The notes below the pieces were generated by a model, which ran no database searches, was not told where the DNA came from, and was given only the letters and a program-made list of their open reading frames with translations. Below, in pieces: positions 4,681-63,893 of a DNA stretch of 64,000 bases; position 1 is the first letter of the stretch, and every line of letters begins with the position of its first letter. The DNA comes from Onthophagus taurus (lineage: Eukaryota > Arthropoda > Insecta > Coleoptera > Scarabaeidae). The stretch covers positions 1,054,001 to 1,118,000 of the forward strand of contig NC_091976.1 in the NCBI RefSeq assembly GCF_036711975.1, read 5' to 3'. Position numbers and translations under genes: made by a program.

Positions 4681-4688
4681 CTGGTTTT

Positions 4689-7080: not shown

Positions 7081-8712
7081 GTTTTTTTAATAGTTATTAT
7101 TATAATACTTTTATTAAACTAAGATTAGAACTAAAACTAGAACTAACACTAGAAACTTTCGGGTTTTGCCGTGCGTCTTTTAATAAAAGGTTTGACGTTT
7201 CGGATGCCATGTTGCAACCTTCTTCAGAAACTGGTTCGAAGTGACGAGATCAAAAAATCGGTAACTATATATAAGTCGGAAAAACTAATTACTAATCAGT
7301 TAACGCTAATTACAAACTAATTAATAACTAATTGCGTCGCGTCCGGTGTGAGGCGGGAAGAGGTCTTCGTGTTCACCACCATCTTCCATGTTCTGCTAAG
7401 CTCCCAGCCATCCTCTCTGTTGACGTTATTTTTATATCGGTGAATCTCTATGGCTTCTCTTGTCAGTCTTTGGTAGTATCTGGTGTCCCTAGCCAGCACC
7501 TTTGTTTGTTCGAAGTCTATTCGGTGCCCCTCTGCATGGCAATGTTCCGCAACCGCCGACTGCTGGATCTTCTTCAGCCTTACATCCCTCTCATGCTCCT
7601 TGATGCGGCACTCGACGTTGCGTCCAGTTTGGCCAACATAAACCTTCCCACAACTACACGATAGTCGATAGACTCCCGCTCCTTTTAATGGAGTTAGTTT
7701 GTCCTTGGCTATCGGGAGTGTGTTCTGAATTTTACTGACCGTGCCGTACCGCACTACGATGTCGTTCTTCTTGAGGTGCCTAGCAATTCGTTCTGTTACA
7801 CCTGAAACATAGGGAAGACAGATAAATCCAAGTGGTTTTGTACTTACCGTGTCCTCGCTCTGCTTTCGCTGCTTGATGGCCTGGTTGATGTCCCTCGAAA
7901 TGTATCCATTCTTCTGCAGCACGCCTCGTAGAAAGTGTTGCTCCTTCTTCAAGTTCTCTCCTTCACATAGTCTCGCTGCTCGCTGAAATGATGTACGGAT
8001 CACGGACCTCTTCTGTTGGGGATGATGATGTGAACATGCCTGTAAATACCTGTTGGTATGGGTCTTCTTTCGGTATATACCAAGTTCTATATCTCCATCC
8101 TGGTGATCAACACATCTAGGAAAGGTAGTTTTTTGGCAGTTTCTGTTTCCATGGTGAACTTAATCATAGGATGTTGAGAGTTCAAGTGATCCAAGAACTC
8201 TTGGAGCCGTTTTTGACCATGTTGCCATATCACAAACGTGTCATCCATATATCGGAGCCATAGTTTCGAATAATTCCATGTAGAAATTAGCTATAACTGG
8301 CGATAGTGGAGATCCCATGGCTGCCCCTTCGAACTGCTCGTAAAATTCTCCTTTCCAGCTGAAATACGTCGACGATAAGCAATACTCCACCAGATCTGGT
8401 ACGTATCCTGGTAAACCCTCCGGAATGAGTTTTCGGCGAAGACCCTCTACAGCATCCTTAACTGGTACCCTAGTAAAAAGGGATTCCACATCGAAACTTA
8501 CCAACATATACCCAGCATCCAGCTTTACACCTTTTACCGATTCCACAAAATGTGTAGAATCCCTGACATACGATTCCGTGTTATCTGTAAAGGGGGACAG
8601 AATCTTTGCAAGATGTTTAGCCAGCTGGTATGTTGGGGAGTTGATGGCGCTGACGATAGGGCGGAGGGGGACGTCTGGCTCAGTTTAATTCACACCGGCC
8701 GTGAAAGCCTTC
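7081..8712 (-). mobile_element. Penelope-like element (RT plus GIY-YIG), frameshifted
   Basis: On the minus strand, 8546-8241 encodes a Penelope-type RT segment (YMLVSFDVESLFTRVPV and GAAMGSPLSPVIANFYME). A frameshift near 8258 follows, after which YMDDTFVIW and the distal RT (KKLPFLDVLI) are still readable. 8003-7317 encodes the C-terminal GIY-YIG nuclease with GVYRLSC, KVYVGQTGR and a downstream RIKEHERD segment. Past the nuclease stop lies a hammerhead motif (7186-7235) and a low-complexity tail of CTAGAACTAACA-like repeats (7118-7155). The left boundary near 8690-8712 carries ACACCGGCCGTGAAAGCCTT, which recurs almost unchanged at 20239-20258 in another PLE remnant. Intact reading is lost, so this copy should not encode a functional enzyme. 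Confidence 0.85.
7186..7235 (-). ncRNA. Hammerhead ribozyme motif (PLE 3' region)
   Basis: On the minus strand CTGAAGA (7227-7221) fits the CUGANGA core. A stem II follows with GG-UUGC pairing to GCA-U-CC, one U-U mismatch and one extra base at its foot. GAAACGTC (7201-7194) gives GAAA, a minimal stem III (AC/GU) and C17. Stem I forms between GTTT before the core and AAAC after it (7193-7190). The predicted cut is after C at 7194. This is the type I layout known from PLE hammerheads. Activity is inferred from core conservation only. Confidence 0.75.
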
Positions 8713-10147
8713 AAGAAATACAAAAGAAAAATATTTAATGAGATCTGTGAGCCTGTTTCTTATTTACAAGTGTTGATATATCTGGCTCTATTCTGCTCAA
8801 TTTGAGTCTTAAAGGTGGCTCTCCCAACTCGCACATATAAGATGACGCAAATGGTAATAATACCTTCAGATCATCAGACAGTTCTGGATATTCATTTCGA
8901 ACTTTAAGCCAAAAATTGCTCAATTTAAGTTCTTTGAAAATTAATTTTAATTCTCCATCAGATAATAACTCAATTAGTTTTTCACTAAAATGAAATGACA
9001 CATTTTTGGGTAATTTACATTGAAAGGGGTTTCGAATCCAGTCAAAGTTAGAAAAATCTTCCGGAAAATAAGTACTAAATTGACATTTTAAATCTGTCAA
9101 GTGAAGATGTTATATCTTTAACAATCGATTGAATAACTTTGAACTTGTTTTCTATAACAAAACATTCTAATGTTGGAAATGCTGCAAAATTATTCTCCTT
9201 GCAGTATGAGCACCACAAATCTATTTTTTTTGTAATGGCTTTAATTTTATCATTGGCCACTAATATATTTAATTGTTCACCTTGAAGACTTAAATTCAAC
9301 TCGTTTAATTTGAGAAAAATGTCACTTAAGTAAGCTAACCTACATAGCCATTCTTCATCGGTTAAAAAGTTTGTACATTTTTTGTCTTTATCATTACCAT
9401 TTAAAAACACAAACACTTCTTCTTTAAGTTCAAATAGTCTCGTTAGAACCCTACCCCTCAAAAGCCAACGAACCTTTGTATGTAAAAAAAGATGCTGATG
9501 CTCACTACCCATTTCTTTGCATATGTGCGCAAAAATCCTTGAGTTCAGAGGACGCGCCTTTATAAAATTTATTATTTTAATGTTTTTCGATACAAGCGCT
9601 TCTCTATGAATCATACAGTGAACCCATGTTACATTGGGTGAAACTTCTTTGATTCGGGCTAGAAGTCCGCTGTGTTTTCCAACCATGGCACGAGCTCCAT
9701 CACTGCACACACCCACACAATTTTTTTTCCTCTTTTTTTTCCTTGCAAAAAAGAAAGTCAACTACTTCATTTTTGTATCCATATTTTGCAAAACAAATTA
9801 GTTGTGCAGCATTTTGGCAATCCGTAGATTCATCCAATTGAAGACTAAAAAATTTACTTTTCCGAATTCTCATTATAATTTCGTTTTCCACATTTTCTGC
9901 CATTTCAAATATTCTGCGGCTAACTGTTGTATCCGAGAGTGGTATTTGAGATATTTGTTGCATTTCCTTTTCGCCAAACATAATGGCTGCTATATCTTGG
10001 GCTGCTGGAGCAATTAAGTCTTCAGCAATTGTGTACGGTTTGCCAGATTTTGCTATACGATAGCTCATTATTTCATCCACCTTGCGACCCCGAAAAAACT
10101 TTTCGCGACCCCATTGTGGGTCGCGACCCATAGTTTGAATAGCACTG
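8713..10147 (-). pseudogene. Degenerate hAT transposase (ZBED/SCAND3-like), TIR at one end
   Basis: The minus strand from 10131 reads LIAPAAQDIAAIMFGEKEMQ, FSLQLDESTDCQNAAQL and FAKYGYKNEVVDFLFCK. A frame change follows, then GVCSDGARAMVGKHSG, VHCMIHREALVSK, FIKARPLNSRIFAHICKEMG, HTKVRWLLRGRVLTRLFEL and, after another shift, the C-terminal DLKVLLPFASSYMCE. These match the hAT-type transposase-like proteins related to ZBED5/SCAND3. The segment that family has between LLFC and NCVGVC is deleted, and the BED finger is absent. A hAT-like terminus starting CAGTG lies at 10147, followed by GGGTCGCGACCC-type repeats near 10080-10130. The other end was not found and abuts the PLE at about 8712, so PLE insertion or truncation is likely. 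Confidence 0.8.
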
Positions 10148-10283
10148 GCCTGGACAAATTATACACCGAATTTTTAATAATAATTTTAATTATTAAATAT
10201 TTTGTTTTTTGTTACATGTTTTTATCTTTCACTTTTCAGTAAAATTTTATTAGAAATATGACTGCCCAGCTCTACATACATAT

Positions 10284-10309
10284 TATATAAAATAGACAAT
10301 TCTCAGTAG
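10284..10309 (+). promoter_or_regulatory. Probable core promoter of the DUF229 gene
   Basis: TATATAAA at 10284-10291 is followed by an initiator-like TCAGT at 10303-10307. The TATA-to-Inr distance (about 21 bp) is shorter than usual, so the exact start is uncertain. Confidence 0.45.
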
Positions 10310-10380
10310 TTGGAGGGGGGAAGAAATGTTGAAGTTTATTCTGTCAACATTATTTATAATGTTTTATTTATTTCGTTAAA

Positions 10381-11958
10381 ATGTTTTATTTTATGTTAAT
10401 TTTGGTTCTTTTTCAAATATCCTGTGTTTCCAGTGAACGAAAACTGCGAATACGTAAATTTTCTCTAAATATTTCACATGGATTTTCTTAAAATTCTTAT
10501 TTTTCAGCTCCAATGACAAAGTACTTAATCGAAAATGACGTCTGCTATGTCCCATATTTTGATCCTTGGTCTTTGCAATCAAACTACAAAAATCAATCGG
10601 GTTTCATTAATTTTTGCCCAGAAATTGAACCCTTGGTATATTTTGAAAGAACAAACTTAAAAATAAACGTTTACATCAAAGATTTCTTGCTAGAAAATTC
10701 GATGGAACTTGAATGTTGTCTGAGCAACATAACGAGAAATATGTCTAAATCAATTCCGGATAATTCCTTTAGCGAATCTAGTTGTGAGGTTTTTGAGAAT
10801 TCAACAGAAATAAAAAACGATGTAATTCGAACGATTTGTTATAAGAACGATACGAAGAAAAAACTTTACGAGGATATTCATGGATTTTTTATAGATACAA
10901 ACTTAAATCGAACCGACGAAGAGGTATCCTCTCCTCTGATTGGTTACAACGTTTTAATAATTTTAGTGGATAGTTTGTCGCAAAATAACTTTTTAAGACA
11001 CCTTCAAAATACCCATCGCTTTTTAATAAACAGTGGTTATGTAAATTTAAATATTTTTAATCAAGTGGGCAAAGATAATTTTCAAAATATACTTCCACTT
11101 CTAACGGGATTTTCGCATAGATTTGCACGAATGAAATTCGGTAATCCATCAAAAAAATTCTTTGACGATTATCCATTTGTGTGGAATGATTTCGAAAAAA
11201 ATGGATATGTAACAGCATTTGCTCAAGATTACTCCGAAAAGCATTTTTTTAATGAAAAGTGTTTAGGTTTTTTTGAGCAGCCGACAACTTATTACTTTAG
11301 AAGTTACATAATGAGTTCGAATCGATTGAATACAACATATTTGAACAATATGCCTAATTGCACCGCTTCCTTTTCGGCATCGGAAAGAATTTTAAATTTA
11401 ATATTAGAATTTGTTAAAACTTTTCTCAAAAGAAACTATTTCGGAACATTTTGTTTGAGCTCATTTACTAAATACGATTTTAACGCTCCAGGAAGAATGG
11501 ATGAAATTCTTTTAGAATTTTTCAAAATGCTTCAGAATCTTTTAGAAGATACATTTATTTTCTTTTTAGGCACAAATGGTTATTTTAATGATAACGTTTC
11601 GAAAAATATTTACGGCTGGTTCGAAAGTAGAACTCCGTTCGCATACGTTTACGTTCCGGTAGTTTTTCGAACAATTTATCCAGAACAATACAATTCGTTA
11701 TTAAGCAATCGAGAAAAATTGATCTCACCTTATGATATTTATGTTACTCTTCAGGATATTTTGGAAAAATCCCGCAATGGTTACATCTCGAAGCCGGCAA
11801 GATCTTGTCGAAATTGTAACTCAATTTTTCGAGAACATTCTCATTACCGAACTTGCAAAGAAGCAGGAATCGATAAATATTGGTGCACATGTTTAAACAA
11901 AAAGTTTGAACAATTTCAAAATGGAAATGAAAGTAATACGTATTATGTGGATTTGTAA
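10381..11958 (+). CDS. DUF229 sulfatase-like (alkaline phosphatase fold) secreted protein, 507 aa, likely pseudoenzyme
   Basis: Two exons are proposed, 10381-10453 and 10508-11958. A 54-bp GT-AG intron joins a signal-peptide exon (MFYFMLILVLFQISCVSS) in frame to the long exon. Without that exon the next ATG is 10513 and the protein lacks a signal. NVLIILVDSLSQNNFLRHL (near residue 172) matches the DUF229 start of the sulfatase-like fold. Later segments (YPFVWNDFEKNGYVTAFAQD, ESRTPFAYVYVPVVFR, SPYDIYVTLQDIL and a Cys-rich tail ending YWCTC) follow family order. In the alkaline phosphatase superfamily a DHG box binds metal. Here the matching place reads FFLGTNGYF (about residues 377-385), and the earlier His-containing box reads FTKYDFN (about 345). 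I infer loss of metal chemistry. The protein is shorter than typical DUF229 members, but the frame is clean, so it looks maintained. Confidence 0.8.
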
Positions 11959-11973
11959 ATTATAGCGTTTATT

Positions 11974-11979
11974 AATAAA
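11974..11979 (+). terminator. Polyadenylation signal AATAAA
   Basis: AATAAA lies 16 bp downstream of the stop of the DUF229 gene. Confidence 0.6.
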
Positions 11980-11989
11980 ACGACAATCT

Positions 11990-12253
11990 TCGTTTTTAAG
12001 TACTTTATTCAAGCTAAATACTACCCACCTGCTTTTCCTTGTAAGCTGCCACTAAACTGAAAGGTTCTAAGTGACAAAATATTAGTTTTCGTTCCAAATA
12101 GTAGAGAATTACATTTTCAACCCATCCCCTTCTCTTGTAAAGCTGGTTACTAACATCTATTAATGAAGCAAATAGTTTGTGTTATCTATGTTAACTATAA
12201 GTGAGTATTACAAATCGGAACCGTCCTAACTAGATAGGACTAGATGCATTTTA
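11990..12253. other. Intergenic, nothing recognised
   Basis: Short AT-rich stretch between the DUF229 gene and MITE copy A. Confidence 0.5.
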
Positions 12254-12255
12254 TA

Positions 12256-12809
12256 CAGCCTGATTCAAAGTAAGCGCCTTATTTTTTTTAGCCACACTAT
12301 GGGTACTACTTTCAAAATATTTGGCAGTAATATGTTTTGGGACATTCTCTACACGATGGTGATGCCACATTTTTGTCAACTTTTTTTTTAAATGGAATGC
12401 CAAAATTTTTTTTTTATTATTGAGATCCTAAAAACATTCTTTATACGATAGTATTTTGTTTTTCTTAAAAATTCATTTCTTTCCCCATCAAAAAGCACAC
12501 ATTTTAATCTAGTAGCGCATGAATGTTTTACACTCGATGTTATTTTTGTCCAAATATCAAGCAGCGCTAGACACAAAAGCAACAATTAAACTTTATTTTG
12601 TAATAAACATCTACTTATTTATTTATTTTGACAAAAATAACATCGATTGTAAAACATTCATGCGCTAGTAGATTAAAATGTTAGGTTGCTATTAAATATG
12701 ATATCACCATCGTGTAGAGAATGTCCTAAAACATATTACTGCCAAATATTTTGAAAATAGTACCCATAGTGTGGCTAAAAAAATAAGGCGCTTACTCTGA
12801 ATCAGGCTG
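12256..12809. mobile_element. TA-flanked MITE, copy A (Tc1/mariner-type)
   Basis: The element starts CAGCCTGATTCAAAGTAAGC and ends with its inverted complement, flanked by TA at both sides. Terminal arms of about 110 bp pair with few mismatches, and a further inner inverted pair (about 12520-12575 with 12625-12680) lets most of the element fold back. It contains no transposase. The same family occurs again at 25341-26206. Confidence 0.85.
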
Positions 12810-12829
12810 TATTTATTTTGTGAAATTCA

Positions 12830-13385
12830 TTTGATTGATTCATAACCTCAAATTGTATCTGACAATATGCAGATCTTCTTCATCTTTCTCCTAAATCTAT
12901 CGGACTGTTGATTTTGAAGTCGCTGTCTAAGGACATTGTGGAAGGTGCACTGCCAGCTGTCCTACATCATTTTGGTGATCTTCCTGATGACGGCTTTCTG
13001 CTGGTTCTCTCCCTTCATTACTATACGCCATAGTCTATGCTTGCCCATTCTCTTCGCATGACTACCAATCATTTTGTCGTTGTGTGCCCCATCGTACAAC
13101 GTGCTATACCTATTCTGCACTGTCCCGGGATGTTAGTGTCCCTTATTTTATCCTTTATCGTTTAGCCTAAGATATTTCCTAAAGTTTTCATTTCAGTAAC
13201 GCTCAGTATGTTTTTTGTCTTGTTGGTATCTTCACGGGTTTCTATACCGTAGGTCATAATGGGCCTTATGCAGGTTTTATAAATTCCTATTTTGCTATCT
13301 GTTCGCAGATATTGGTTTGACCAATAGTGTCTCTTAAACATCGTGACAGAACTGCTGCTTTATTTGGGTACATTAATATCAAAAG
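12830..13385 (-). mobile_element. RTE-type non-LTR 3' coding remnant
   Basis: With many stops, the minus strand reads in shifting frames as the end of an RTE-like RT polyprotein. Recognisable pieces are near 13270-13200 (IKPA*GPL*PTV*KPVKIPTRQ) and near 13010-12950 (NEGREPAESRHQEDHQND, like the GRPPKRW tail region). The rank of decay is high. Confidence 0.6.
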
Positions 13386-13735
13386 CGGCCCTCTCCAAAA
13401 AATACTTTTTTTCAGGAAAACATAAACACAAAAATAAGGAAAGCAAAAATAAGTGTTCAAACATTTTACAACTGTTTCAGTTCTGGCTTAATATTTAAGA
13501 TCATCATTATGTATGAGTCAAAATGAAATATTTCCAACATTTTTCTCAAAATTTTGAATTTAAGTTGGAATTTGGCCGGTTTTGACACTTTATTAATTTT
13601 ATTTTTTTCTTTTACTTTATTTGTGTTCAATAACAACTCCATTACACAAAATAAACTGTATTTAACTAAAATTATGACAAAAATCACTAACTTAAAGGAT
13701 AAAACAGAAATACATTGCACAACACATTAAAAGAT
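13386..13735. other. AT-rich spacer
   Basis: Nothing recognised. Short minus-strand frames here show no domain. Confidence 0.5.
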
Positions 13736-14597
13736 CTAATAAATTCTTGTTTTTGTTTCTTCTGGGGTCTTTTCACAAAGAATATTCTCTTCTACAGTAA
13801 ACTCTTCCTGGCCCGGTTTATTTCTAGAAGCCATTTGGGAAACAATGATGTTCGTGTAAAACTCAAGGAAATCGATCTGCTGCCAAAGCTTATCAACATC
13901 GTGAACTTTAGCAGCATTTAGGATTCTTCCGGTAGAAATTTGTTTAGGATTTGCTTTGTTTACATATTTTCCCCTTCTACAAACTCCACTGTCACCCCCT
14001 AGCTCGGACTTATAAGTAAATTCTTCTAGAATAAAATGATTTTTGATTCCTTTTAAAAAAGAAACGCTTGGAAGATGCAAACTTGAAATGCCACTGCTCT
14101 GGTGGCTACATAATAGCATTAACTTCACTTTTCCAACTAAGATCAGGAACTTCACTTCCCAAGTGAAATACCTGGCCATAGTTTTGCAAAATTGTGTAAA
14201 ATTCCTCTGGTCAAGAAAGTACCTCCTATTTCCTGATGACTTTTTCTATCCTTGCAAACACTCTATTGGGCGGAATAAATGAATGCTCAGGAACAGGGAA
14301 AATGTATTCTATTTTTTTAAGGGTTGAAGGCGGCTCGTGTAGGAGCCACTTTCCAAGCTTTAACATAAGAATCGAATTTTTGTTTTGGCCTCCACAGCCA
14401 TCTGCAACGCATCGTAGAGAAATTACTGTAAAATCGATATGTTGCAGTCTGTGATAAACACAAGACGCTATTTCATTAGATCCTTTTGGTAACGCATGTT
14501 CTCCCCAGGTGTATAAAAAAGTGTTCCCTTTTAAAGGATCCTTGAAACTATCTTGGACAATAGACAAGCTATATAAATAAAGCTGCCGGCTGTGCAT
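13736..14597 (-). pseudogene. DUF7869-like transposon-associated protein, C-terminal half (frameshifted)
   Basis: The minus strand from 14597 contains MHSRQLYLYSL, TFLYTWGEHALPKGSNEIAS and CVADGCGGQNKNSILML, then VPEHSFIPPNRVFARIEKV, and ends in a stop at 14226. A second frame, 14179-13736, carries the continuation, with VHDVDKLWQQIDFLEFY. The DGCGGQNKNS box and the later H-x-F-x-P run match the DUF7869 domain that is spread as multicopy insect proteins of probable transposon origin. That assignment is from memory of the motif and not from a search. The N-terminal part probably lies at 16800-17210, separated by the insertion at 14663-16686. Confidence 0.55.
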
Positions 14598-14662
14598 TTG
14601 ACTTGCTTAATAAATGCAATGCTCTTTTCTTGTGGAATCTTACCCTAAAGGAAGTAACGCCG

Positions 14663-16686
14663 CACAGTGGTCCAAACACTCAAAACCCGATCGAAAATCA
14701 ATTAAAAAAAAAATTGTATAGTGTTGTTTTTTTAAATGTTACATATATTTTAACTATTAATAGACTCTTAGTGAAGTTTATGAAGTCTTTGGTGTTTTAT
14801 AATAGCTACTGCGCGAAATAAATTGCTATTACAATTACCTTATTTTGTATAAGGAAATTTTTTAGAAAACGACACAACTTTAGAAAACAAAAAAGATGGT
14901 ATATCACTACTTGAAAATATTGTGTCGTTGATTTCTTATAAAGTACAGAAAGGTCTTCATTTTACGACTTTCCAAATTTCAAACGATGTTTGTTGAAAAA
15001 AATTACAACCATTTCTATTGACGTCAATAAATACTTATATTTTTTGACCATTCAATCTTTTAAATTAAATATCTTGCGAGCGAACAAAATCGAACAATTG
15101 TAGCCAACATTTTTTTATTGCTGAAGGTATGGTGTACATAGCATAAGAAAGAAATCTTGCGCCAACGTGCGCCTTAACCAAAAAATTGGCAGTCAAAGAT
15201 TACTTAACACATAATTGTGGATCTTATTTATCCTTGTTATGATTTTCGTTATTTTGTTGCTATGTTTTGGTTTTTATCTTTTCTATTTTGGGTAGACTTC
15301 AAACAAATGAAGATTTATTTAAAAGAGCTCCGATCCATTTATTAGTAACTTTTATAAAGAATGTTCAGAAAGATATAAAAATATGAATGAAGACATGAAA
15401 AATTTACTTATACTGGACAAGTCTCTAGAAGAAAAGGAAGGTAAAGAAGAAGATGATGATGATGAAGAAAGTGAAGAAGAAGACAATAATGATGAAGAAG
15501 TAAATATAGAGGAACAAGATCTAGAAAATGAAGAAGACTCCCACAAATTGAGATAAATTTTGTTATGTTGGTGAATATAACAAAATATTTTATATTATCT
15601 CGAATAATTTGAAATGTATGTGGACTATCTCAGTATCATGGGAAAATTCTACTATAAGTAGGCTTCAAACTTACGTATTATGGTCTCCAATATCACTTCA
15701 AATTAAGAGCGATGAGTTTATTCTCGAATAGTTCTTAAAACATTTTTAGTAAAAGCTAAGTAAAATTGAGCTATCTAACCAACTAATTCTGCCAATTAAT
15801 TTTGCCACATTTTCATCAAATTCCATTTCTGATAGGGTAAAAAAATATGGGGCGTTCCATTTAAAATTTTCGACTTTCTTACCATTGAATATGGAGAAAC
15901 GATAATTCAATTTTTGACCAGCCTGTATAAGATACTTTAATACAACAAATGACAATCTGTTTGACAACATCTCAAGAGTAATCGTGCCAATTTAGAGCTT
16001 TTTTGAATGAACGTTGGCTGAGATATAAGGTTTTAAAGAGCATAAAGTAATTTGCCAAAGAAAAACTTAAAAACAAAATAACTCGAAAACGAAAAATGGT
16101 AGGTACCAATAACTTTTATCAAAGTCAACTTATTTTGTCGAATATAATTATTAAAAGGTGCATTAAAAACTATAGCATTCCATTTAAAATAACGAAGTTG
16201 TGGTCTACATCCGGTAGACCGGAAGTGGCGGCCATCTTGAAAGTATTTTAGATCGAAAGCTTCGAATGAACAACCCATGTTGTCAAAATTTCAAACCGCT
16301 ACGAATAGTGGTACCTAAAAAAGTTCTAACGAACCAGTTACGTGAGACATCCGGTATAGGTCCTCTATAAAACAATTTCGATAGGAATTTGCGATCACGT
16401 AATTACACAAAAAAAATGTGAAGTAATATACGTCTAATGTTTTGCACAAAATTTTATAGTAATATTCTTCTTTAAAGTCCTAATTTATATGAAAAGAAAA
16501 TGAGTATGAATTTAAATAAAGTACTGCTTGGGTAGTACTACTTCCGGTTGCGGAATTTAATTCAAATTTTGACACAACATTACCCTTTTGGTCTTATAAT
16601 CATATGCCAAGTTTCATAAAGCTAGCTAATTGTTAATACCAAAATAATATTTTCGATCGGGTTTTCTTACCGCTCGGACCACTGTG
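14663..16686. mobile_element. Transib-like element with RSS-like CACAGTG termini and 5-bp GC-rich TSD
   Basis: Both ends read CACAGTGGTCC inward, and both carry AAAACCCGATCGAAAAT a short distance inside. The exact 5-bp duplication CGCCG flanks the element (14658-14662 and 16687-16691). A 5-bp, GC-rich duplication and termini beginning CAC(A/T)(A/G)TG are the hallmarks of Transib, the superfamily related to RAG1. The left end has 12 nt between CACAGTG and AAAACCC. No Transib transposase was readable inside, only an acidic frame at 15322-15556, so it is probably non-autonomous. It interrupts the older DUF7869-like relic. Confidence 0.7.
15322..15556 (+). other. Short acidic open frame inside the Transib-like element
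   Basis: The frame opens after a stop and ends at TAA 15554-15556. Its ATG at 15383 gives 57 residues, with EEDDDDEESEEEDNNDEEVN in the middle. There is no domain, promoter or splice support. It could be the remnant of an element-encoded C-terminus or chance low-complexity sequence. Confidence 0.25.
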
Positions 16687-16799
16687 CGCCGTGCCAATCC
16701 TTCTACCCTGTGTTTAGTAATTGTTATTATTATTATTAGTGTTTAGTAATACCCAGAACTTTAAGAAATGTTGGACGGCAGACATGTTTTGTCGTTTTT

Positions 16800-17535: not shown

Positions 17536-17539
17536 GGCG

Positions 17540-18340: not shown

Positions 18341-18344
18341 CTTA

Positions 18345-20094: not shown

Positions 20095-20258
20095 CGTAAA
20101 ACTAAAACTAGAACTAACACTAGCACTATCACTAGAACTAACACCAGACCTAGAACTAGAAACTTTCGTGTTCGCTTCAAACTTGTTTTCTGAAGAAGGT
20201 TGCAATATGACATCCGACACGTCAAACATTTTATTAACACCGGCCGTAAAAGCCTTCG
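20095..20258 (+). mobile_element. Penelope-like element terminal fragment
   Basis: It holds CTAGAACTAACACTAG-type low-complexity repeats, a CTAGAAACTTTCG junction, a hammerhead-like core, and ACACCGGCCGTAAAAGCCTT at 20239-20258. All of these are shared with the PLE at 7081-8712, but the hammerhead lies in the opposite orientation relative to the CTAGAA tail. It is nested in the perfect-TIR element. Confidence 0.7.
20180..20232 (+). ncRNA. Hammerhead motif with broken core
   Basis: CTGAAGA (20191-20197), a stem II like that of the 7.2-kb copy, and ACGTC then CAAAC are present. The GAAA box reads GACA (20217-20220), which changes the essential A14. Expected to be inactive. Confidence 0.65.
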
Positions 20259-21706: not shown

Positions 21707-21845
21707 TAAGTAAAAATATCACTAATTTAGGTTTGATGTTTAAAACATCAAAAAAAAATGACAATAAATTTTTTTTCGTGATTTCTCTAAATAATCTTTA
21801 TTATTAAAAAAGGGTAGGTTAAATTTCGAATCTAAATTTAAAAAA

Positions 21846-23091: not shown

Positions 23092-23106
23092 TAAATTAAG
23101 GTGATA

Positions 23107-23112
23107 AATAAA
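23107..23112 (+). terminator. Polyadenylation signal AATAAA
   Basis: Lies 16 bp after the proposed stop at 23089-23091, favouring the spliced last exon. Confidence 0.5.
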
Positions 23113-23284
23113 ATGTTGTTACTATAATAATTAATAAATTTCACCATATTAATTGGCTCTACTACATTGTATTCGTTATTGATTGCCGTTTATAATGGAC
23201 ATTCTTTTCCTAAATAATCTTCTCTCTTCACTTTGATCTTAGCCATAGCCATAGGCCCAGAGGCGATAGTATAATATTGACACC

Positions 23285-23418
23285 ATACCGATATTGAATT
23301 ATATATTGAATATATATATTGAATATATATATTGAATATATATATTGAATATATATATTGAATATATATATTGAATATATATATTGAATATATATATTGA
23401 ATATATATATTGAATATA
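23285..23418. repeat. 13-bp tandem minisatellite (TTGAATATATATA)n
   Basis: About ten near-perfect 13-bp units run up to the Tc1 element, and a shorter block of related units continues at 25191-25255 after it. The Tc1 element therefore inserted within this TA-rich array. Confidence 0.9.
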
Positions 23419-25190
23419 CACTGGCCGGCAAAAAAAAACCGGCCACTAAAATGTAGCCACAATTTCAAAGCTGGCTTACTTGCGAACCATTCATTCGATT
23501 TTGATGATTCTTTTTTTGATCGAAAGATTGATTTATTTGTAATAATCCTGCGATAGAAATTTTTATGCGGATATTAATTTGAGCACATACGGGGTGCAAG
23601 AATGAGAAAACCTTTTTTTCTCGAAATTTGTAATACCCTGTGGGGTGCAACTGCTACAGCAGAGGGTGTTAACTGCAATCAAATAGTAGCCCAATCTTTT
23701 CTGAGCATTTTGTTTTTTTATTCACTCTATTATCTCTGTTACTAACGAAGATGCAGTATATTAAAGCGATCGCCTGTGAAAACAAGACGAGTGACAATAG
23801 TAGCTGATGACAGTTTTATTGTTCTAAGCAATCGTAGAACGACAGCTATAGAAGCTCGGTGTCGTCTTCAAATGGTGCATGTTGTTGATGTCAGTGAGCA
23901 ATTGCGGCAAACTCTGCTTCAAAAGCAATTCGTAACTCGTGAAGGTTGTCCGGTAGGACAGGACGATGACGAATGCGTCTCTCAAGTTAGTCCCAAAGAT
24001 ATTCGATAGGGTTAAGGTCCGGGCTGCACGCTAGCCACTCTATCCGTTCAATACCCTACTTCATCAAGATTTTCGTTAACCACACGTGCTACGTGCGGTC
24101 GAGCATTGTCATGCATTAGCATGAATATATCACCAATAAAATGGGAATAGAACCTCCATGGAAAGGTACTCTTTCCGAAATTGTGCAGGTCGCAAACCTT
24201 TCATTACGATGTCTCCACACTCATTGTCGACCATCAGGTGACCGGAGACAAAATCGAGATGCGTCAGTGAAGAGTACCTTACCCCATTGTTCCTTTCCCT
24301 AATTCATATGTACGCGCCCAAATTGAAGACGTGTTCGCCGATGTCTCTGGAGCAGCTGAGGTCTTTTGGCAGGTCTTCTTGCAGTCAGATCACTTTTATG
24401 AAGTCTTCGGTGAATAGTTCTTTCACTTACGGCAACCCCATGCACCATTTGAAGACGATGCCGAGTTTCTACAGCTGTCGTGCTACGATTCCTCAGAGTG
24501 TTTAGAACAATAAATCGGTCATCAACTGCTGTTGTCACTCGTCTTCTACCGAAACCTTGCCGCCTAGTGAAATTTCCTGTTCCCACATATTGATTCCAGG
24601 CATCCTGAACTGTTGTTGGGGGTATACCCAACGTATGGGCAACGTATTGCTGACTTTTGCCATCCTCAATTAAAGTAACAATACGCGCAACATCAGTTAC
24701 TGACAACGGGATTGCTATTATGTTAAAAGACTGTAAAAATCTTTAACAACTGTCAATTTACTATTCGAAACAAATGACATACGCTACCTAGCGTGCCACC
24801 TTAGATTTTTTATGCTTGCTTGTCTTGTTTTTACAGGCGTTCGCTTTAAAACACTGCATCTTCGTTAGTAATAGAGATAATAGAGAGAATAAAAAAATAA
24901 GATGTTCAGAAAAGATTGGGCTTCCGTTTGATTCCAGTTAACACCATCTGCTGTAGCAGTTGCAACCCACAGGGTATTAGAAATTTCGAGAAAAAAAGTT
25001 TTTCTCGTTCTTGCAGCCCGTATATGCTCAAATTAATATCCGAATAAAAATTTCTATCGCAGGATTATTACAAGAGAATCAACCTTTCGATCAAAAAAAG
25101 AATCATCAAAATCGAATGCGCGGTTCGCGAGAAAGCCAGCTTTGAAGTTTTGGCTAATTTAAAGTGGCGGTTTTTTTTTGCCGGTCAGTT
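23419..25190 (-). mobile_element. Tc1-like transposon, decayed
   Basis: Ends CACTGGCCGGCAAAAAAAAA and TTTTTTTTTGCCGGTCAGTT form long inverted repeats (about 250 bp with divergence), with TA on both sides. The minus strand carries a Tc1 transposase from 24706: HTH text (VARIVTLIEDGKSQQYVAHT, TRRQGFGRRRVTTAVDDRFI) to 24299, then shifted frames with FTDASRF, MHDNARPHVARVVNENLDEV and WLACSPDLNPIEYLWD. All catalytic blocks are visible, but frames are broken. A plus-strand copy of the HTH-adjacent part (RRVTIVADDSFIVLSNRRT, 23776-23905) shows an internal inverted duplication. Confidence 0.85.
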
Positions 25191-25255
25191 TATATATTGA
25201 ATATATATATTGAATATGTATATTGAATATATGAAATATATATATTGAATTAGGC
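25191..25255. repeat. Right continuation of the 13-bp array
   Basis: ATATATTGAATATATATATT-type units directly abut the right end of the Tc1 element. Confidence 0.8.
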
Positions 25256-25340
25256 AAAACATCGACTAAAGTATCGCCGAAGAAAGTGCAACTTCATTTG
25301 AATAAGTCGAAATCGCTTGCGGCCGAGGTTTTACAATATA

Positions 25341-26206
25341 CAGTCTGTTTCAGAGTAAGCGCCTTACTTTTTTTTAGCCACACTATGGGTACTACTTTCA
25401 AAATATTTGGCAGTAATATGTTTTAGGGCATTCTCTACCCGATGGTGATCTCTACCAGATTTCCAATTCCGTTGACTGTCCTTTCAACAAAATAGAGAAA
25501 ATCCATCGTTGAAAAATCTCCCAATTCTATCACTAGCAAAATAAAAACCTTAATGTGTCAAAAGTCAAAACTTATTGTAGTCTTAAATCTTACCGAATAG
25601 ATATAGTAGTCGGTTGGGTCGGTATTACAGGCGGCCTGTTTCTGTTAGTATTAGAAAACAAAATATCCAAAAAACATGCGAGGTGGCGCGACGTTTATTA
25701 TTTTTTTTATTGACTACTATATTAGTTCGGTCGGACTTTCTTAAAATCGTTTATTAATAGAAAATCATTTATAAATAGGTGTCATTAATGAATGATTTTG
25801 TATACATTTATAAATCATATAAATACACAGTCGACGGAAAACTTTATATAATTGATTTTTATTTGCTTCATTCATGAGCTACTAGATTAAAATGTTAGTT
25901 GGCTTTTTGATGGGGAAAGAAATGAATTTTTAAGAAAAACGAAATACTATCGCAAAAAGAATGTTTTTTATTTTTTTTTTCCCAATAATAAAAGAAAAAT
26001 TATGGCATTCCATTTAAAAAAAAAAAAGTTGAAGGTCACCATTTTGAAATAATTCGTCCAATTGAAAATCTGGTATCACCATCGTGTAGAGAATGTCCTA
26101 AAACATATTACTGCCAAGTATTTTGAAAGTAGTACCCATTACCCACAGTGTGGCTAAAAAAAATAATTTACATAAAAAAATAAGGCGCTTACTATGAAAC
26201 AGGCTG
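25341..26206. mobile_element. TA-flanked MITE, copy B (same family as 12256-12809)
   Basis: Ends CAGTCTGTTTCAGAGTAAGC and GAAACAGGCTG, flanked by TA. Outer arms match copy A. The centre differs and is longer. The right arm contains, in inverted form, the inner left arm of copy A, so the two copies kept different parts of a longer foldback parent. Confidence 0.8.
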
Positions 26207-26208
26207 TA

Positions 26209-26670
26209 TATCGCATCAACCCAAAACTCGTAAGTATATCCTATCGTCTCGCCCACAAGCGCACTTGCTAAATCAACAGTATCCTATATCCTACATCCTA
26301 TATCTTCAATTTAGCCTAGGCATTGTAAGATATGTTAACAAGATTCGCGCTGATATTGTATTAATGCAACGCCTCGAGAACCCGACAAGAACTACGTCTT
26401 CTGTCAATTATGGTTGGATTGTTTATGAAGAATTAGTCAAAAAGAGGTCGCTAGCGGTAAAAGCTCTATAGTTAATATCATACCAACCTAAAATTACTCA
26501 ACGAATTGTAGTTAAAACTTATTAACACATTCTAATGCGAATCAGCCACAAGTGACCTTGACTAAACTGCTGATGAAAAACACATGATTTCAATGATTAG
26601 GGAAAGTTCTTTACCACGGTTATCCCCAATTTCGTTAGTATTTAAAAAATTACACGCATCAGGAATTCCA
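26209..26670. other. Spacer without recognised gene
   Basis: Short open frames only. No domain, repeat or promoter was recognised. Confidence 0.45.
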
Positions 26671-27351
26671 AAACATACAGTATGTCCCAGGATAGATGTT
26701 ACAAGAGGTATAATGACTTAAAAATTTTAGAATTTTATTTTAAGGCTAAGGAATTAAGCCCTTGACGTGAGGAGAATTTTAAGAATATTTTCATATTTTG
26801 AAAATCAACTTCGGCATTGATAGTGAATATTAAAAAATATACTAAAAAAATATACTAGAAAAAACTTCTTTAACTGGCTTTTATTTAAATATATATCGAA
26901 CTAGTTTCCCAGATGCGAAGCTAGTTCGCATCTGGGAAGGGAACAGAGAAAATTTGATGCGTTTTTTGAATTATTTGAATAAAGTTAATAAGAACCTGAA
27001 ATTTACTATAGAAATTGAAGAAAATAATCAACTTAATTTTCTAGAGTTAAATTTAACAAGAACAGACAAAGATAAAATTGAATACAACATTCATAGGAAA
27101 CCATCGACAACCATCTCAACAACTATTCCTTATGATTCAGAGCATCCTATTTCACGAAAACTTGCCAATTTTAGATTTTGAATAAATAGAATATTTAACT
27201 ATCCCCTCTCCGATCTGCTAGAAATTTTAGAAATTAACAAACACAAAAATAACAATAACTTCGAATTATTCAGCTTCAATTATATAATAAATCTATTTTT
27301 ATGTGAGTTTTTTAAAAATAAACAATGTTTATACTTCAATATATTTTATAA

Positions 27352-27408
27352 ATTTATTAACTCTACCGGTTTCGGCCTAGACCATCGTCAGGAGTCTCGT
27401 TGTATAAA
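27352..27408 (-). ncRNA. Hammerhead ribozyme motif, minus strand
   Basis: CTGACGA (27391-27385 read on minus) starts the core, GGTC-TA-GGCC makes stem II, and GAAA (27373-27370) precedes a minimal stem III ACCGGT with A17. Stem I is GACTC with GAGTT, and a distal pairing TTTAT/ATAAA can close the end. One extra base stands between the core and stem II. Type I layout, activity inferred. Confidence 0.7.
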
Positions 27409-27823
27409 GTTGGGGTTGTTTTTATGTTCTATTGAGGTTATTTTATGTTCTGTTGAGGTTGTTCTATTTTTATGTTTCTAAGAGATCACAAAACAATTAT
27501 ATAACATGTTTATTTGCCCGGGTAGTTCAATGCAGGTTTAAAACCCGCTCAAGTCTTTTTCCCAGTTTCTTTGTTCTCATCTCACCGTCGACATCTTTTC
27601 GTTTTTGACAAAATTTTTAATATATTTTGATGTCGTACGTTAATTTTATACTTTGAGTTATATTGTGAATGTTTTTGTTGTGATTATTTATTTTTTAAAT
27701 TTTAACGTTATGATAATGTTTTTCGTTTGAGTTTTTCGCTTTTCATGTAAGTATAAATTGCTTTGAAAATTTTGACTAAATTTTTTAAACTGTTTTATTT
27801 TAATGTGTTTTTCGTTTTTGTTA

Positions 27824-27870
27824 CTTTCGACTGAAGATGAGGGTGTAACCTTGAAACTAGTCTCGATATA
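27824..27870 (+). ncRNA. Hammerhead ribozyme motif, plus strand
   Basis: CTGAAGA (27831-27837), stem II AGGGT-GTA-ACCTT, GAAA (27853-27856), stem III ACTAGT, C17 at 27862, and stem I TCGA pairing with TCGA. The predicted cut is after 27862. It lies at the right end of the PLE fragment and touches the MITE that begins at 27873. Confidence 0.7.
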
Positions 27871-27872
27871 TA

Positions 27873-28052
27873 CAGGGTGAGTCAAACTTGAGAAATAGGT
27901 TATAAAACCTATTTCTTTCTTCCATTTCGAAATAGGTCAAATAATTTTATAACCTAAAATTAATATCATCTTAAATCATCGCGTTAAATCATCTTAATTT
28001 ATTGTCCTCTATATGTCCCTGCTCCGTGTCGGTTCTTATGTGAATCACCCTG
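27873..28052. mobile_element. Small TA-flanked MITE
   Basis: Ends CAGGGTGAGTCA and TGAATCACCCTG are inverted with one-base differences, flanked by TA. The interior has no coding frame. Confidence 0.65.
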
Positions 28053-28699
28053 TAAATAAAAGCAAGTTAAAGAAGTTTTTTCTAGTATATTTTTTTAATA
28101 TATTCCCAACTTGCAACATGGATAAAATTCTTAATTGATAGTGAAGCAAAAACTATTTTGAGTTCAGGTAAAGTAAGCTTTTTGTTCATGATACGGCAAA
28201 ATATCATTAAGAAAAGTTGTTCAGAATGAGAAATTATGGCACTATGGAAAATTTCAGAAAGATCTACCTAGATTGATTAAACCACCATATTTTAGATTAG
28301 ATCAGAGTGAAGAAAAAAACAATGAAAAATGCCATGAAAAAAAAAATGACTTAAGTAGTCGTAAATATTGACAAATAAATAGTTTTAATTCACATTTCAA
28401 TTACTATACAATATTTATGTTATTTAAACTAAAATGTGATGGTTTAACCAAAGTAGATAGATCCTTCTGAAATTTGGTATAGGACCATAATTTAACAAAA
28501 CAAACAACTTTACCTAAACTAAAAATAGTTTTCGATTCATTATGAAGGCTGCTTTTGTTTTCAAGTTATGAAAATATTCTTAAAATTCTCCTCACACCAA
28601 GCAGGGCGTAATTTCTTAGCCTTAAAATAAAATTTAAAATTTTTTAAGTCATTATACCTCTTGTATCATCTATCCTGGAACACACTGTATGTTAGTTAA

Positions 28700-29395
28700 A
28701 CAAGAAATAAAAGTAAGTAACAATGTTTCTGTATATCAGAAACCTTATAAAAAATTTTATAATAAAAAGATAGAACATACACTCCCCTACTGCTCTTGAT
28801 ACCACACTGATAATAAATTCAACAATAAACATCGTCTGAACGCAAGACAGAAGATATAGGATTTGCGACCGAGGTATCCCTGGAGCACCTGGGCTCCAAG
28901 CGACTTCGGTTAAAGCATGTTTGAAGAAAGTGGGGGCTTTCATTACTACTTTCACTATACCAGTTCAAGTGGTGTCAAACTTTTTGACGTGCTGGTGTAG
29001 TCTCTGTTGATATGTCCAGGCATGGTCTTTGAAATAGTTCCTCTGAATACTTTATTCTGAAAGTGTTTGTGACCTTTGAATGTCAAAAGTCCACACTAGT
29101 TTGAGAACTCGGTGATAAAGCATAAGGCGGAATATCTGTCCAATCGCCAGTACTTCTTTTGTAGTTAAGTCTGAGTTCTTGCCAGGATATTTAGCCATAT
29201 TTTCATGTAGATCTACTTGTTCATGAATAATACTGCCTCGTGCTTTTCCGTCCAACTTTGTATTTCTGCAATAGCTATTTGTAATTTTTAGATTATATCA
29301 CTGTTATTCTTTCCACTGTCTAGAATTGCGCTGACAACTGCATTTTCATCAAATTTAGGAAAGTCTGCTGTATATAGAAGATAAAGGATCCATAC
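28700..29395. other. Spacer, nothing recognised
   Basis: Open frames on the minus strand lack recognisable domains. Confidence 0.45.
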
Positions 29396-29402
29396 CAATA
29401 CA

Positions 29403-29770
29403 CACTGAGAAAAATGTTATGAAATTTACAACTATATCATGGTATGAGTTACAATAAATTTATTGTACCCATAACTTTTACTATGATTTTTTGTAACAGT
29501 ACATGTTATCGCATATTTACCAACTTTCTATAGTTTTTTTACAATATAGATTCAAATTTAAAGTTGGTGTAAAATTCTCTTATCTAATACTGTAAATTTA
29601 CAATATAGAGAATAAAATTACTTGATAAATTACTTGTAAATTTCATTCTTGATTGTAAATTTTCCTTATAGGGATTAATTTTACTATCTCAATTGAATAA
29701 TACGACCATATCATACGGTCCAAATTACCAATGTGTACATTGTAAATCGACCTTATGATTTTTCTCAGTG
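29403..29770. mobile_element. MITE with CACTGAGAAAAAT ends
   Basis: Starts CACTGAGAAAAATGTTATGA and ends TTATGATTTTTCTCAGTG. The interior is AT-rich without coding. The first bases resemble those of the MITE at 35616-36106. No clear TSD was seen, so the superfamily is open. Confidence 0.6.
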
Positions 29771-29879
29771 CGGCTGTTTCTAGACAACAAGCTCTAAATC
29801 AATCCAAGATAATGCAATTGTGGTATCAGCATATGATTGATAAATAAAAGCTCCTTGGGAACGATGAAAAATTATTTAT

Positions 29880-31835
29880 TCTTAATATAAGATCAGTGCA
29901 ACATGTTTCGAGATTCAAAATCTCTTCATCAGGCACGACTAAAAAACATAAAATTGAAGTAAGAAATATGTATAAAAAATATGTATAACAACATATTTTT
30001 TAATTTTGTTTAGTTACCGTCAATTACTTATGGAGCACGAAATTGAACATCTGACAAACGTGGTGAAATTTTGTAGGTGATTGGAAGAAACAAAAGGCAT
30101 TAACAAATTTTTTAAAAACCTTAAGGGCAAGTTAGTTGGTTAAAAATATTCTAAAACAAGATAGAGACACGTGTTATGATAAAAGAATCGAGAAAAATGG
30201 CCACTTACCCTTCATCGTTAAAAAAAACTAGTTTTTAAGAAATTGAAATTAATTGAACTGTTTAAAATCTGAAAGGGGAAAGTTTATTTAGTAAATTTGA
30301 AAAAATTAATTAAATTAAGAGTTGCATAACTTACAAGAAAAAATTTTTTATAAAAATTATTGCATAAATTAAAGTTTTATTCTTAGGAGTCCATCTGCGA
30401 CGTGAAGAAACTTGAGGTGGACTGAAGGACATAAAATTTGGGGAAAAAGTCTTGCGCCGGAAAAGCAAAAAGGTAGTGGAGGGAAGAGGTTAATTTTAAA
30501 TGAATTTTAAAAATTGGCGGGTATTATTAAGTTCTGTTGTGTCATTTAAAAGTTTGTTATTATAATTGTTTAAATTAATATGCAATTCTTCGAGAAGGTC
30601 CATTTCTCTCGATTTCCCCACGTTTAAAAGTAGTTTAACATTGATAAATTCTATTTTATGTTTATGTTCGTTGATATGTTTAAAAACTGCAGATGAGGGT
30701 TTGCTTAGGTGTTCTTTGAAAAGTTTTTTAATGCTGCGTCCAGTCTGACCAATATAAATTTTAGCGCAATCAGGACATTTGATTTCATAAATACCACTCA
30801 GCTCCTCTTTGTTAAATTGATGTTTATTATTAAAAAGGTGTTTATGGATTTTGTTTTGAGAGACAAAGGCAGGGGCAAGGCCAAATTTCAACAAATTTTG
30901 TTTAACAGGGTTAACAATAGATGGGTGGTAAGGTAAAGCAATATATTTGGTTTTGGACTTAGTGTGAGGATAGATTAATTTAGTGATTTGTGAGTTGTGC
31001 ACTTTATAGTAAATGTTTTGTAAATCTTTTATAGAAAAACCATTATTGAGTCCTATTCTTACAATCTGTTTTATTTCAAGGTTGAGGTTATCATTATTTA
31101 AAGGAACGTTATAAATTCTATTGAAAAAGAAGCGAAAACTGGCAAATTTATGTTGATCACAAGAATAGGAACTTTTTGGTATAATACAATCTGTGGTAGT
31201 GGGTTTTCTAAAGATATTGAAGTTGATAATATTTTCTTTAATGTTTCTAGTTAACTCTAAATCTAGGAAATTTATTTTGTAATTATTTTCTTTTTCGAGG
31301 GTGAATTCTAAATTGCAAATGCTGTTTATCAGATTGAACCAAGTTTAGCATGACTTTCTTCATAGACAACAAGGATATCATCTACGTATCTGGCATAGAA
31401 AGCAATATCCTTACTGAAAAAATGATTTTTATCTAAAAATAGTTCTTTTTCAAATTCATTAACATAGATATCTGATAGAATGCCCGAAATAGGTGAGCCC
31501 ATAGGCAAAACGTCCTTCATTTTGTAAAATCTATTATTAAAGGTAAAAAAGCTCTGACTACATACAATCTCCAAAAGACCAATGAAACTATTAATTTCTA
31601 ATATGTTTAATTTATTAATATCTTGTGAACTGATCAAGTATTTTTTGATGATAGATAATGTTTTATCGATTGGAACGTTAGAGTATAAGTTTTTTATGTC
31701 GAAAGAAATTAGTTTACTAAGGTTTTTAATTTTGAAGGTCTTTAGTTTATTTATTAGATCAGTAGAATTTTTGATTGTGTATGTGAAGTTGTTGTGAAAA
31801 AGTTTATAAAGGAAGTTTTGCAGTGCATATGATGG
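29880..31835 (-). mobile_element. Penelope-like element, RT and GIY-YIG plus 3' hammerhead
   Basis: On the minus strand, about 31830-31040 is RT. Upstream LISFDIKNLYSNVPIDKTLS is readable before the 31637-31329 frame, which holds LPMGSPISGILSDIYVNEFE and the catalytic YVDD (FYARYVDDILVVYEE). Frame 31002-30496 is the GIY-YIG nuclease with GIYEIKC, KIYIGQTGR and FKEHLSKP. A 500-bp non-coding part follows to the hammerhead at 29891-29942. Stops and one shift interrupt the RT, so the copy is probably dead, but all landmarks are in canonical order. Its right end abuts another non-LTR relic. Confidence 0.85.
29891..29942 (-). ncRNA. Hammerhead ribozyme of the 30-kb Penelope-like element
   Basis: On minus, GTGC-CTGATGA (29936-29926), stem II GAGATT-TTG-AATCTC, GAAA (29909-29906), stem III ACATGT, U17 (29900), then GCAC pairing with GTGC as stem I. 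Every invariant core base is present. The predicted cut lies between 29900 and 29899. It is on the same strand as, and 3' of, the RT and GIY-YIG frames, as in known PLEs. Confidence 0.85.
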
Positions 31836-63840: not shown

Positions 63841-63893
63841 ATTGAAACAGTTATTAGAGAAATTTCCGAGGACACACTGTATAATTTTTTAAT

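Follow-up and report, generated by a model that had tools for sequence, protein, structure and literature searches.

The hammerhead motifs in the window, the whole stretch of 64,000 nucleotides that was analysed, are minimal type I hammerheads of decayed Penelope-type elements (PLEs), and a great many related motifs occur elsewhere in this genome. The explanation that joins the observations is that three PLE remnants and solo pLTRs carry the hammerheads, which, judged from their sequences, would work as dimers. This joint reading is very probably correct.

In each of the four named motifs (Table 1), the sequence elements CUGANGA, GAA and H17 are combined with a stem II, a palindromic stem III and a stem I with four to five contiguous pairs; the minimal type I core (CUGANGA ... 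GAA ... UH) is thus found in all four. A preliminary description had given their places, stem III words and cleavage-site letters, and had stated that they share core and layout while differing in all helices. Sequence and scan agree with it on every one of these points. The motif at 27.84 kb has U before GAA, a position at which C predominates in its subfamily. A strict scan of the window (stem I of at least 4 bp, stem II of at least 3 bp) recovers three of the four motifs, missing the one at 7.2 kb because of the mismatch in its stem II. The same scan gives 0 matches in 300 dinucleotide-shuffled windows. A covariance model (R1) was trained on 24 hammerheads of the genome; the subfamilies found in the window were excluded, although one more distant row of the PLE2 clade (L057) was kept. 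Its E-values are 1.3e-7 at 29.9 kb, 4.4e-7 at 27.37 kb, 5.9e-7 at 27.84 kb and 0.053 at 7.2 kb. No hammerhead model of Rfam 15 matches any part of the window up to E = 10, probably because stem III is very short. Since this library missed every hammerhead copy in the window, annotation that relies on Rfam may overlook the class.

Table 1. Features of PLEs and hammerheads in the window
Feature	Position	Strand	Details
PLE1 pLTR stretch	7113-7330	-	99.5% and 97.7% to two genomic copies in locus L051
PLE1-side hammerhead (7.2 kb)	7188-7233	-	stem III ACGU, H17 = C, one U-U mismatch in stem II; 3' of PLE1
PLE1 coding remnant	7317-8684	-	endonuclease (EN) frame 7317-8159, RT frame 8241-8684; separate open frames
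Decayed PLE1-type pLTR piece	20172-20237	+	holds core-broken hammerhead 20190-20223
Putative PLE3 target-site duplication	26816-26827 (left), 28134-28145 (right)		12-bp direct repeat
PLE3 inverted pLTR fragment	26836-26908	-	truncated within its hammerhead
PLE3 EN-region remnant	26912-27304	+	92% nucleotide identity to L009 over 26925-27213
Putative target-site duplication of solo pLTR	27292-27304 (left), 27463-27475 (right)		13-bp direct repeat
Solo pLTR, ACCGGU family	27305-27462	-	inserted in 3' region of PLE3
Solo-pLTR hammerhead (27.37 kb)	27358-27397	-	stem III ACCGGU, H17 = A
PLE3 hammerhead (27.84 kb)	27825-27868	+	stem III ACUAGU, H17 = C
MITE-like insertion	27873-28052		splits PLE3 pLTR; CAGGGTG...CACCCTG, TA on both sides
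PLE2 hammerhead (29.9 kb)	29894-29938	-	stem III ACAUGU, H17 = U
PLE2 coding remnant	30496-31856	-	GIY-YIG EN frame 30496-31344, RT frame 31329-31856
Decayed hammerhead of another pLTR family	51871-51916	-	stem III ACAU

The three PLE remnants span 7.1-8.7 kb (PLE1), 26.8-28.1 kb (PLE3) and 29.8-31.9 kb (PLE2). The RT frame of PLE1 matches RVT_1 at E 2.3e-7, and its GIY-YIG-type EN, without a Pfam match of its own, is recognised through homology to that of PLE2. PLE2 matches RVT_1 at E 1e-12 and GIY-YIG at E 6.3e-4, the latter under the curated cut-off. PLE3 is an EN-region remnant alone, in which no RT was seen; one protein alignment extends it to 27370. PLE3 has a pLTR with a hammerhead, an inverted pLTR fragment and a putative target-site duplication, the last being a feature sought in PLE3 only. 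The preliminary description had proposed at least three PLE lineages, and this holds: the ENs of PLE1 and PLE2 are 26-27% identical, and the EN remnant of PLE3 is a third. PLE3, the ACUAGU remnant that contains the 27.84-kb motif, had gone unreported. Four motifs do not mean four separate PLEs, because the 27.37-kb motif sits on a solo pLTR nested in PLE3. The family of this solo pLTR has 51 other matching places genome-wide, each of up to 113 bases. Of the 52 places in total, half (26) are arranged as 13 head-to-head pairs; the remainder are single, and no same-strand neighbours occur within 5 kb.

Further copies, decayed or partial, are present; that there might be more than four was anticipated by the words "four or more". 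At 20.2 kb, GAA has changed to GAC and the core is broken. At 51.9 kb, outside the range first described, stem III reads ACAU where related copies have ACGU. The 3' half of one more hammerhead lies at about 26895-26908 on the minus strand. The proposed accumulation of motifs stands in that four are present, but the clustering is mild, since roughly 0.9-1.2 hammerheads per 64 kb are expected; the probability of four or more is 0.01-0.03 for a window that was chosen because of its motifs. None of the window copies has a same-strand, same-family partner inside the window, and they are therefore probably fossils.

Patterns for the motifs were counted genome-wide, with the reversed pattern as control. 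The ACAUGU class with H17 = U has 45 matches (control 1), the ACUAGU class with H17 = C has 181 (1), the ACCGGU class with H17 = A has 1193 (0), the ACGU-type pattern CTGANGA..GAAACGTC has 1321 (20) and a general hammerhead pattern has 3961 (59). All five exceed their controls at least 45-fold. Stems I and II are conserved by pairing, not by sequence. Over 24 distinct rows, 90.1% of cells are paired and 81 cells are changed on both sides (score 0.959), compared with at most 44.3%, 27 and 0.241 when pairing partners are slid by 1-3 columns. The helices thus covary between copies, a check that the preliminary description had itself suggested.

Its proposed linkage to PLEs is also seen, since motifs follow EN on its 3' side and in the same orientation. 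An ACGUC hammerhead is found 80-93 nt downstream of 8 of 11 PLE1-type EN matches (C1 below 18.74 Mb). For ACAUGUU, 5 of 45 hammerheads lie 467-567 nt downstream of an EN match, when 29 of at least 138 EN matches are compared (two lists of EN loci contain at least 138 and at least 140). Same-strand EN homology occurs within 1.5 kb upstream of 2/8 ACAUGUU, 4/10 ACUAGUC and 1/10 ACCGGUA loci, and many motif copies are solo, without an adjoining EN. Conversely, 38 loci were fetched by EN (30 + 8, the PLE2 of the window being among the 30), and 25 of them have a recognised hammerhead 3' of EN. Its stem III is ACAUGU in 14, ACAUAUGU in 3, ACAGCUGU in 1, ACAUUGU in 3, AUUGUCAAU in 3 and AAAUAUGU in 1; the dyad symmetry is full in 24 of the 25, several of which are near-copies of one another. 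The core departs from CUGANGA in nine of the 25 (L070, L071, L075, L077, L078, L080, L082, L088 and L089), some of them beside long open frames. In the other 13 loci, the stretch immediately 3' of EN contains no recognised PLE-type hammerhead. Some of these have an ACGUC hammerhead of another type farther downstream (1332 nt in L066), which was left uncounted; such hammerheads occur five times across all retrieved loci.

An EN tree was built from rows with a recognised hammerhead, after removal of L012 (under 60 residues). L009, L016, L018, L047 and the PLE3 remnant are short fragments with under 35% of columns filled. Stem III type follows this tree only in part: rows of the ACCGGU and ACUAGU types are intermingled, on fragments that are short. 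L016 (ACUAGU) stands next to PLE1 on a long branch and is probably misplaced.

Stem III was surveyed in the first 100 places listed of the 3961, with a pattern that fixes only the first A and the last U. When nine rows of one tandem array and four ACGU-type rows are set aside, 87 remain, of which 68 are perfect palindromes. Among the 77 C-G-closed rows, the middle is self-complementary in 67 (CG 39, UA 19, AU 9), against 25% expected at random, and the same is true for 54 of 64 distinct stem II/III combinations. A separate set gave 25/25 symmetric middles and was set aside as circular, most of its loci having been fetched with palindromic patterns. In the PLE2 clade, the symmetry persists across lengths of 6, 7, 8 and 9 nt and changes of letter, in separate EN lineages. 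Dyad symmetry allows stem III to pair with that of another copy, and if two ribozymes shared a single helix III, predominant self-complementarity would be expected. The symmetry fits the dimers that the preliminary description had put forward as one option beside tertiary contacts. When two short copies are co-folded with ViennaRNA, the structures of lowest energy are extended duplexes of other kinds and not the dimer of hammerheads.

In the proposed mechanism, transcripts of tandem PLEs would hold two or more copies of one ribozyme. An example of tandem units is seen in EN matches at C1:31638220, 31641193, 31644166 and 31647139, each spaced 2973 bp. The self-complementary stem III segments of two copies would pair into one shared helix III, which would make both cores active, and cutting at H17 of each copy would release unit-length pieces for retrotransposition. 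Close neighbours are mostly arranged otherwise. Three lists were compared, each over its first 100 places. Same-class neighbours within 1 kb are head-to-head in 27 of 29 cases (14/15, 4/4 and 9/10), not tandem, and so could not dimerise in one transcript.

A more tentative extension, possible but rather doubtful, is that stem III serves for self-recognition and evolves solely from one self-complementary word to another, so that cleavage would report the presence of two intact pLTRs of the same family in one transcript. The words in question are ACCGGU, ACUAGU, ACAUGU, ACAUAUGU and ACAGCUGU; in the odd-length ACAUUGU and AUUGUCAAU, a central U faces U. If this is true, only full tandem units would be processed, and solo and truncated copies would stay uncut. 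The idea that stem III words keep families apart is unsupported, ACCGGU being common to 34 of the 64 distinct combinations. With several thousand PLE hammerheads in many families, and stem III words beside an EN tree, the dimer model becomes testable by comparison, as between-molecule covariation visible inside a palindrome.

Other explanations have been weighed. The motifs could act as monomers, with stem III a 2-bp hairpin with a free loop and palindromes merely inherited from few founder families. The families did expand from few founders, and more than half (39) of the 68 palindromes among the places listed consist of the one word ACCGGU. Self-complementarity nevertheless extends over most distinct combinations, and in the PLE2 clade it survives changes of length and letter across separate EN lineages, which makes monomer action unlikely. 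A signal in DNA or RNA other than a ribozyme, for instance in template binding or integration, would render cleavage irrelevant. Insertion signals are also located in the pLTR, and in the available text of PMC11167929, ribozyme mutants of the Anolis PLE left RNA insertion in vitro unchanged. For a simple sequence signal there would be no need of stems that covary around fixed core letters while little other sequence is kept, and this alternative is given a slightly lower probability still.

Chance matches within AT-rich repeats are suggested by the shortness of the core and by the silence of Rfam; the shuffles, the genome counts against controls and the covariation rule them out. The preliminary description had called the ribozymes of the several lineages independent. 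All helices differ among the four motifs, and the distance from EN differs between PLE1-type and PLE2-type copies. What the hammerheads of the lineages seen have in common, on the other hand, is the core, an open stem I, a stem III that is minimal and symmetric, and a location 3' of EN. Independent origin is unsupported, since shared descent explains the common core and place at least as well, and it appears improbable. Dimeric hammerheads of PLE remnants and solo pLTRs remain the preferred reading.

Metazoan non-LTR retrozymes are tandem repeats of 150-450 bp with type I hammerheads, and the axolotl hammerhead has a palindromic stem III cap (PMC7229834). The 27.37-kb family is similar in that its repeats are short, non-coding and equipped with a type I hammerhead. 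Unlike the tandem retrozymes, it occurs as head-to-head pairs or singles, and retrozyme identity was rejected for lack of same-strand neighbours within 5 kb among its 52 places. In the Poseidon element PAc of Anolis carolinensis, the motif overlaps with the beginning of the ORF, and its cleavage was seen only with the PLE protein (PMC11167929). PAc and the PLEs of this genome are alike in GIY-YIG EN, pLTR hammerhead and tandem genomic units.

Penelope elements have inverted, head-to-head pLTRs (PMC3846280). The head-to-head hammerheads, and in PLE3 the inverted pLTR fragment on the 5' side with its 12-bp border repeat, resemble these, with no difference in kind. For the minimal type I hammerheads of PLEs (Cervera and De la Pena 2014; Lunse, Weinberg and Breaker 2017, via PMC7761336), a very short stem III, location in the pLTR and thousands of copies per metazoan genome are described, and action as dimers has been proposed or reported (PMC7761336). 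In the available text of the cited literature, no description was found of stem III symmetry through 6-, 7-, 8- and 9-nt forms. The window hammerheads have the same core, very short stem III and pLTR location. Since PLE hammerheads as dimers are already in print, the window motifs belong to a described kind, from which they do not differ and of which this genome contains further families.

All four hammerhead motifs named in the preliminary description lie where it placed them, with the stem III and the cleavage-site letter (H17) that it gave. All four combine the hammerhead core with a stem II, a palindromic stem III of four or six letters, an allowed H17 and a stem I of four to five pairs. 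A strict scan recovers three of the four, missing the 7.2-kb motif through one stem II mismatch, and has no match in 300 shuffled windows. An Rfam search of the window detected none of the four. A covariance model built from 24 genomic hammerheads (R1) gives them E-values of 1.3e-7, 4.4e-7, 5.9e-7 and 0.053.

R1 also picks up a sixth, decayed hammerhead (E 0.041). It represents a further family of pLTRs, the terminal repeats that hold the hammerhead in Penelope-like elements (PLEs); 50 other places in the genome match it, and no PLE frame was found beside it. The fifth hammerhead is adjoined by (AACTAACACTAG)n repeats, and similar ones lie at 7117-7154. Two R1 rows at 3.28-3.41 kb (E 0.3 each) fall inside a tandem coding repeat and were taken as chance.

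Features of the window discussed in the text
Feature	Position	Strand	Remark
Hammerhead, ACGU-C	7188-7233	-	PLE1
Hammerhead, ACCGGU-A	27358-27397	-	
Hammerhead, ACUAGU-C	27825-27868	+	PLE3
Hammerhead, ACAUGU-U	29894-29938	-	PLE2
Fifth hammerhead, PLE1 type	20172-20237	+	GAA core broken; 86% to 7.2-kb pLTR
Sixth hammerhead, decayed	51871-51916	-	
PLE1 endonuclease region (EN)	7317-8159		
PLE2 EN	30496-31344		
EN-region remnant of PLE3	26912-27304	+	alignment to L009
13-letter direct repeat	27292-27304 and 27463-27475		flanks stretch with 27.37-kb hammerhead
MITE-like insert, 180 bp, TA-flanked	27873-28052		interrupts PLE3 pLTR
Inverted pLTR fragment of PLE3	26836-26908		left side of element
12-bp direct repeat at PLE3 borders	26816-26827 and 28134-28145		
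Ser/Thr/Glu-rich repeat-coding frame	2979-3758	+	over 99- and 132-bp tandem repeats
Three transposase-like gene frames	8735-10158	-	directly upstream of PLE1 RT frame
13-mer ATATTGAATATAT repeated	23291-23418		9.9 copies
Near-perfect long hairpins	61354-61445, 61561-61622, 63890-63973		

The motifs are abundant in the genome (291 Mb, 33 contigs), in which the window occupies G000:C11:1054001-1118000. Counted on both strands, with the same pattern read backwards as control, the partly overlapping match sets number 45 for ACAUGUU (control 1), 181 for ACUAGUC (1), 1321 for ACGUC (20), 1193 for ACCGGUA (0) and 3961 for the general pattern CTGANGATG...CGAAANNNNTH (59). Taking a genome total of 3961 to 5300, 0.9-1.2 hammerheads are expected per 64 kb, and the probability of four or more is roughly 0.01-0.03 for a window that was itself chosen for its motifs. 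On contig C1, G000:C1:1679028-1680844 holds nine hammerhead-like motifs of the same type on one strand, about 179 bp or double that apart, possibly a pLTR-derived satellite.

The general pattern constrains just the first A and final U of the six stem III letters. Of its 3961 places, the sample takes the first 100, all on C1; nine rows of one tandem array and four ACGU-type rows were set aside. Perfect palindromes make up 68 of the remaining 87 words. Where the second pair is C-G (77 rows of this sample), the two central letters, which would be unpaired in a hairpin, are CG in 39, UA in 19, AU in 9 and others in 10. A second sample of 38 loci, one of them the window's PLE2, was fetched by the EN (a GIY-YIG-type region) and not by the motif. 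A recognisable hammerhead lies 3' of the EN in 25, and stem III has full dyad symmetry in 24 of these, in words of 6, 7, 8 and 9 letters. This count is looser than the pattern counts, as 16 of the 25 were read by eye with a relaxed core and several are near-copies; the core differs from CUGANGA in nine. Loci L079-L081 and L086-L088 have words of odd length (AUUGUCAAU, ACAUUGU), whose central U would oppose U in a dimer. In the parts of the literature searched, no account was found of symmetry surviving changes in stem III length; one may already be in print.

Stems I and II covary. From 43 distinct genomic motifs, 24 were aligned, the same rows from which R1 was built; the window's subfamilies were excluded and one more distant row of the PLE2 clade was included. 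Over eight pairs, 90.1% of cells are paired and 81 double-changed (score 0.959), against 44.3%, 27 and 0.241 in the best slid-partner controls, and none of 500 shuffles equals the real pairing, double-changed cells or score. Two further measures are not clearly above shuffles: pairs with a double change (reached by 388 of 500) and further pair types (44 of 500). Stem II pairs 2-4 likewise covary in two classes, represented by 77 and 63 distinct sequences; the first pair there is almost invariant and so carries little information.

Evidence for linkage to PLEs is provided by the neighbouring EN. The genome has at least 140 matches to the PLE1 EN and at least 138 to that of PLE2. Among the 11 PLE1-type matches on C1 within the stretch spanned by the ACGUC list, eight are followed on their own strand by an ACGUC hammerhead at a distance of 80-93 nt; one has it at 4361 nt and two have none. 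When the 45 ACAUGUU hammerheads were compared with 29 EN matches, five lay 467-567 nt downstream of an EN. A further four were on the EN's strand but 2.9-7.9 kb downstream of it, four were near one in another arrangement, and 32 were near none. PLE2-type EN pieces with ACAUGUU about 7.6-7.9 kb downstream occur on C11 near 8.6 and 9.36 Mb and on C20 at 66-74 kb, as if a single interrupted element had multiplied as one larger unit. When PLE1 and PLE2 proteins were compared by tblastn with motif loci that included 1.5 kb of flank, same-strand upstream EN homology was found at 2/8 ACAUGUU loci (L005, L008), 4/10 ACUAGUC loci (L009, L012, L016, L018) and 1/10 ACCGGUA loci (L030). It was also found in 4/16 further ACCGGU regions chosen for paired motifs (L038, L045, L046, L047). 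All four stem III classes thus accompany PLE endonucleases, and many copies are solo pLTRs. The transposase-like frames beside PLE1 have no Pfam match at E 0.01; we take them to resemble hAT-type ZBED proteins.

An EN tree of 36 rows, each with a recognised hammerhead, supports three PLE lineages in the window, where at least three had been proposed. Two ACGU rows sit far from every other row, together with L016, which is probably misplaced. On one side are 25 rows with ACAUGU-like words (support 87/87). Another group (88/83) holds eight rows in which ACCGGU and ACUAGU interleave; the branching inside it is unsure because several rows are short fragments. Both supports are below the tool's starred level. 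Stem III labels change 12 times on the tree (minimum 8, shuffled mean 20.8), which supports words that broadly track lineage and probably switch within it.

According to PMC11167929 and PMC7761336, the hammerheads of PLEs are located within pLTRs and the elements occur as tandem units; the latter paper cites a 2017 paper whose title has such variants cleaving RNA as dimers. Tandem PLE units 2973 bp apart exist in this genome. In a transcript of such units, two copies would pair through stem III, and the transcript would then be cut into units. What the analysis itself establishes is structure, symmetry, place and the tandem units. The window copies are unlikely to be active in place, because none has a same-strand partner of its family there and the elements are broken.

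An example of a broken element is PLE3. Locus L009 carries the same ribozyme subfamily as the 27.84-kb motif and aligns to 26925-27213 at 92%, continuing over 27212-27304 and 27464-27872. Since this alignment spans both the EN remnant and the 27.84-kb hammerhead, they belong to one element. In L009 the last two blocks share 12 letters; at the corresponding point the window carries the 13-letter direct repeat. The stretch between the repeats, with its hammerhead on the opposite strand, has 51 other genome matches of up to 113 letters. These features make it a solo pLTR that was inserted into PLE3. Elsewhere in the window, the three long hairpins have weak Rfam miRNA scores, under the gathering scores, and are probably MITEs. 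With an inverted pLTR fragment on its left and a 12-bp repeat at its borders, PLE3 has the arrangement that PMC3846280 describes in Penelope elements.
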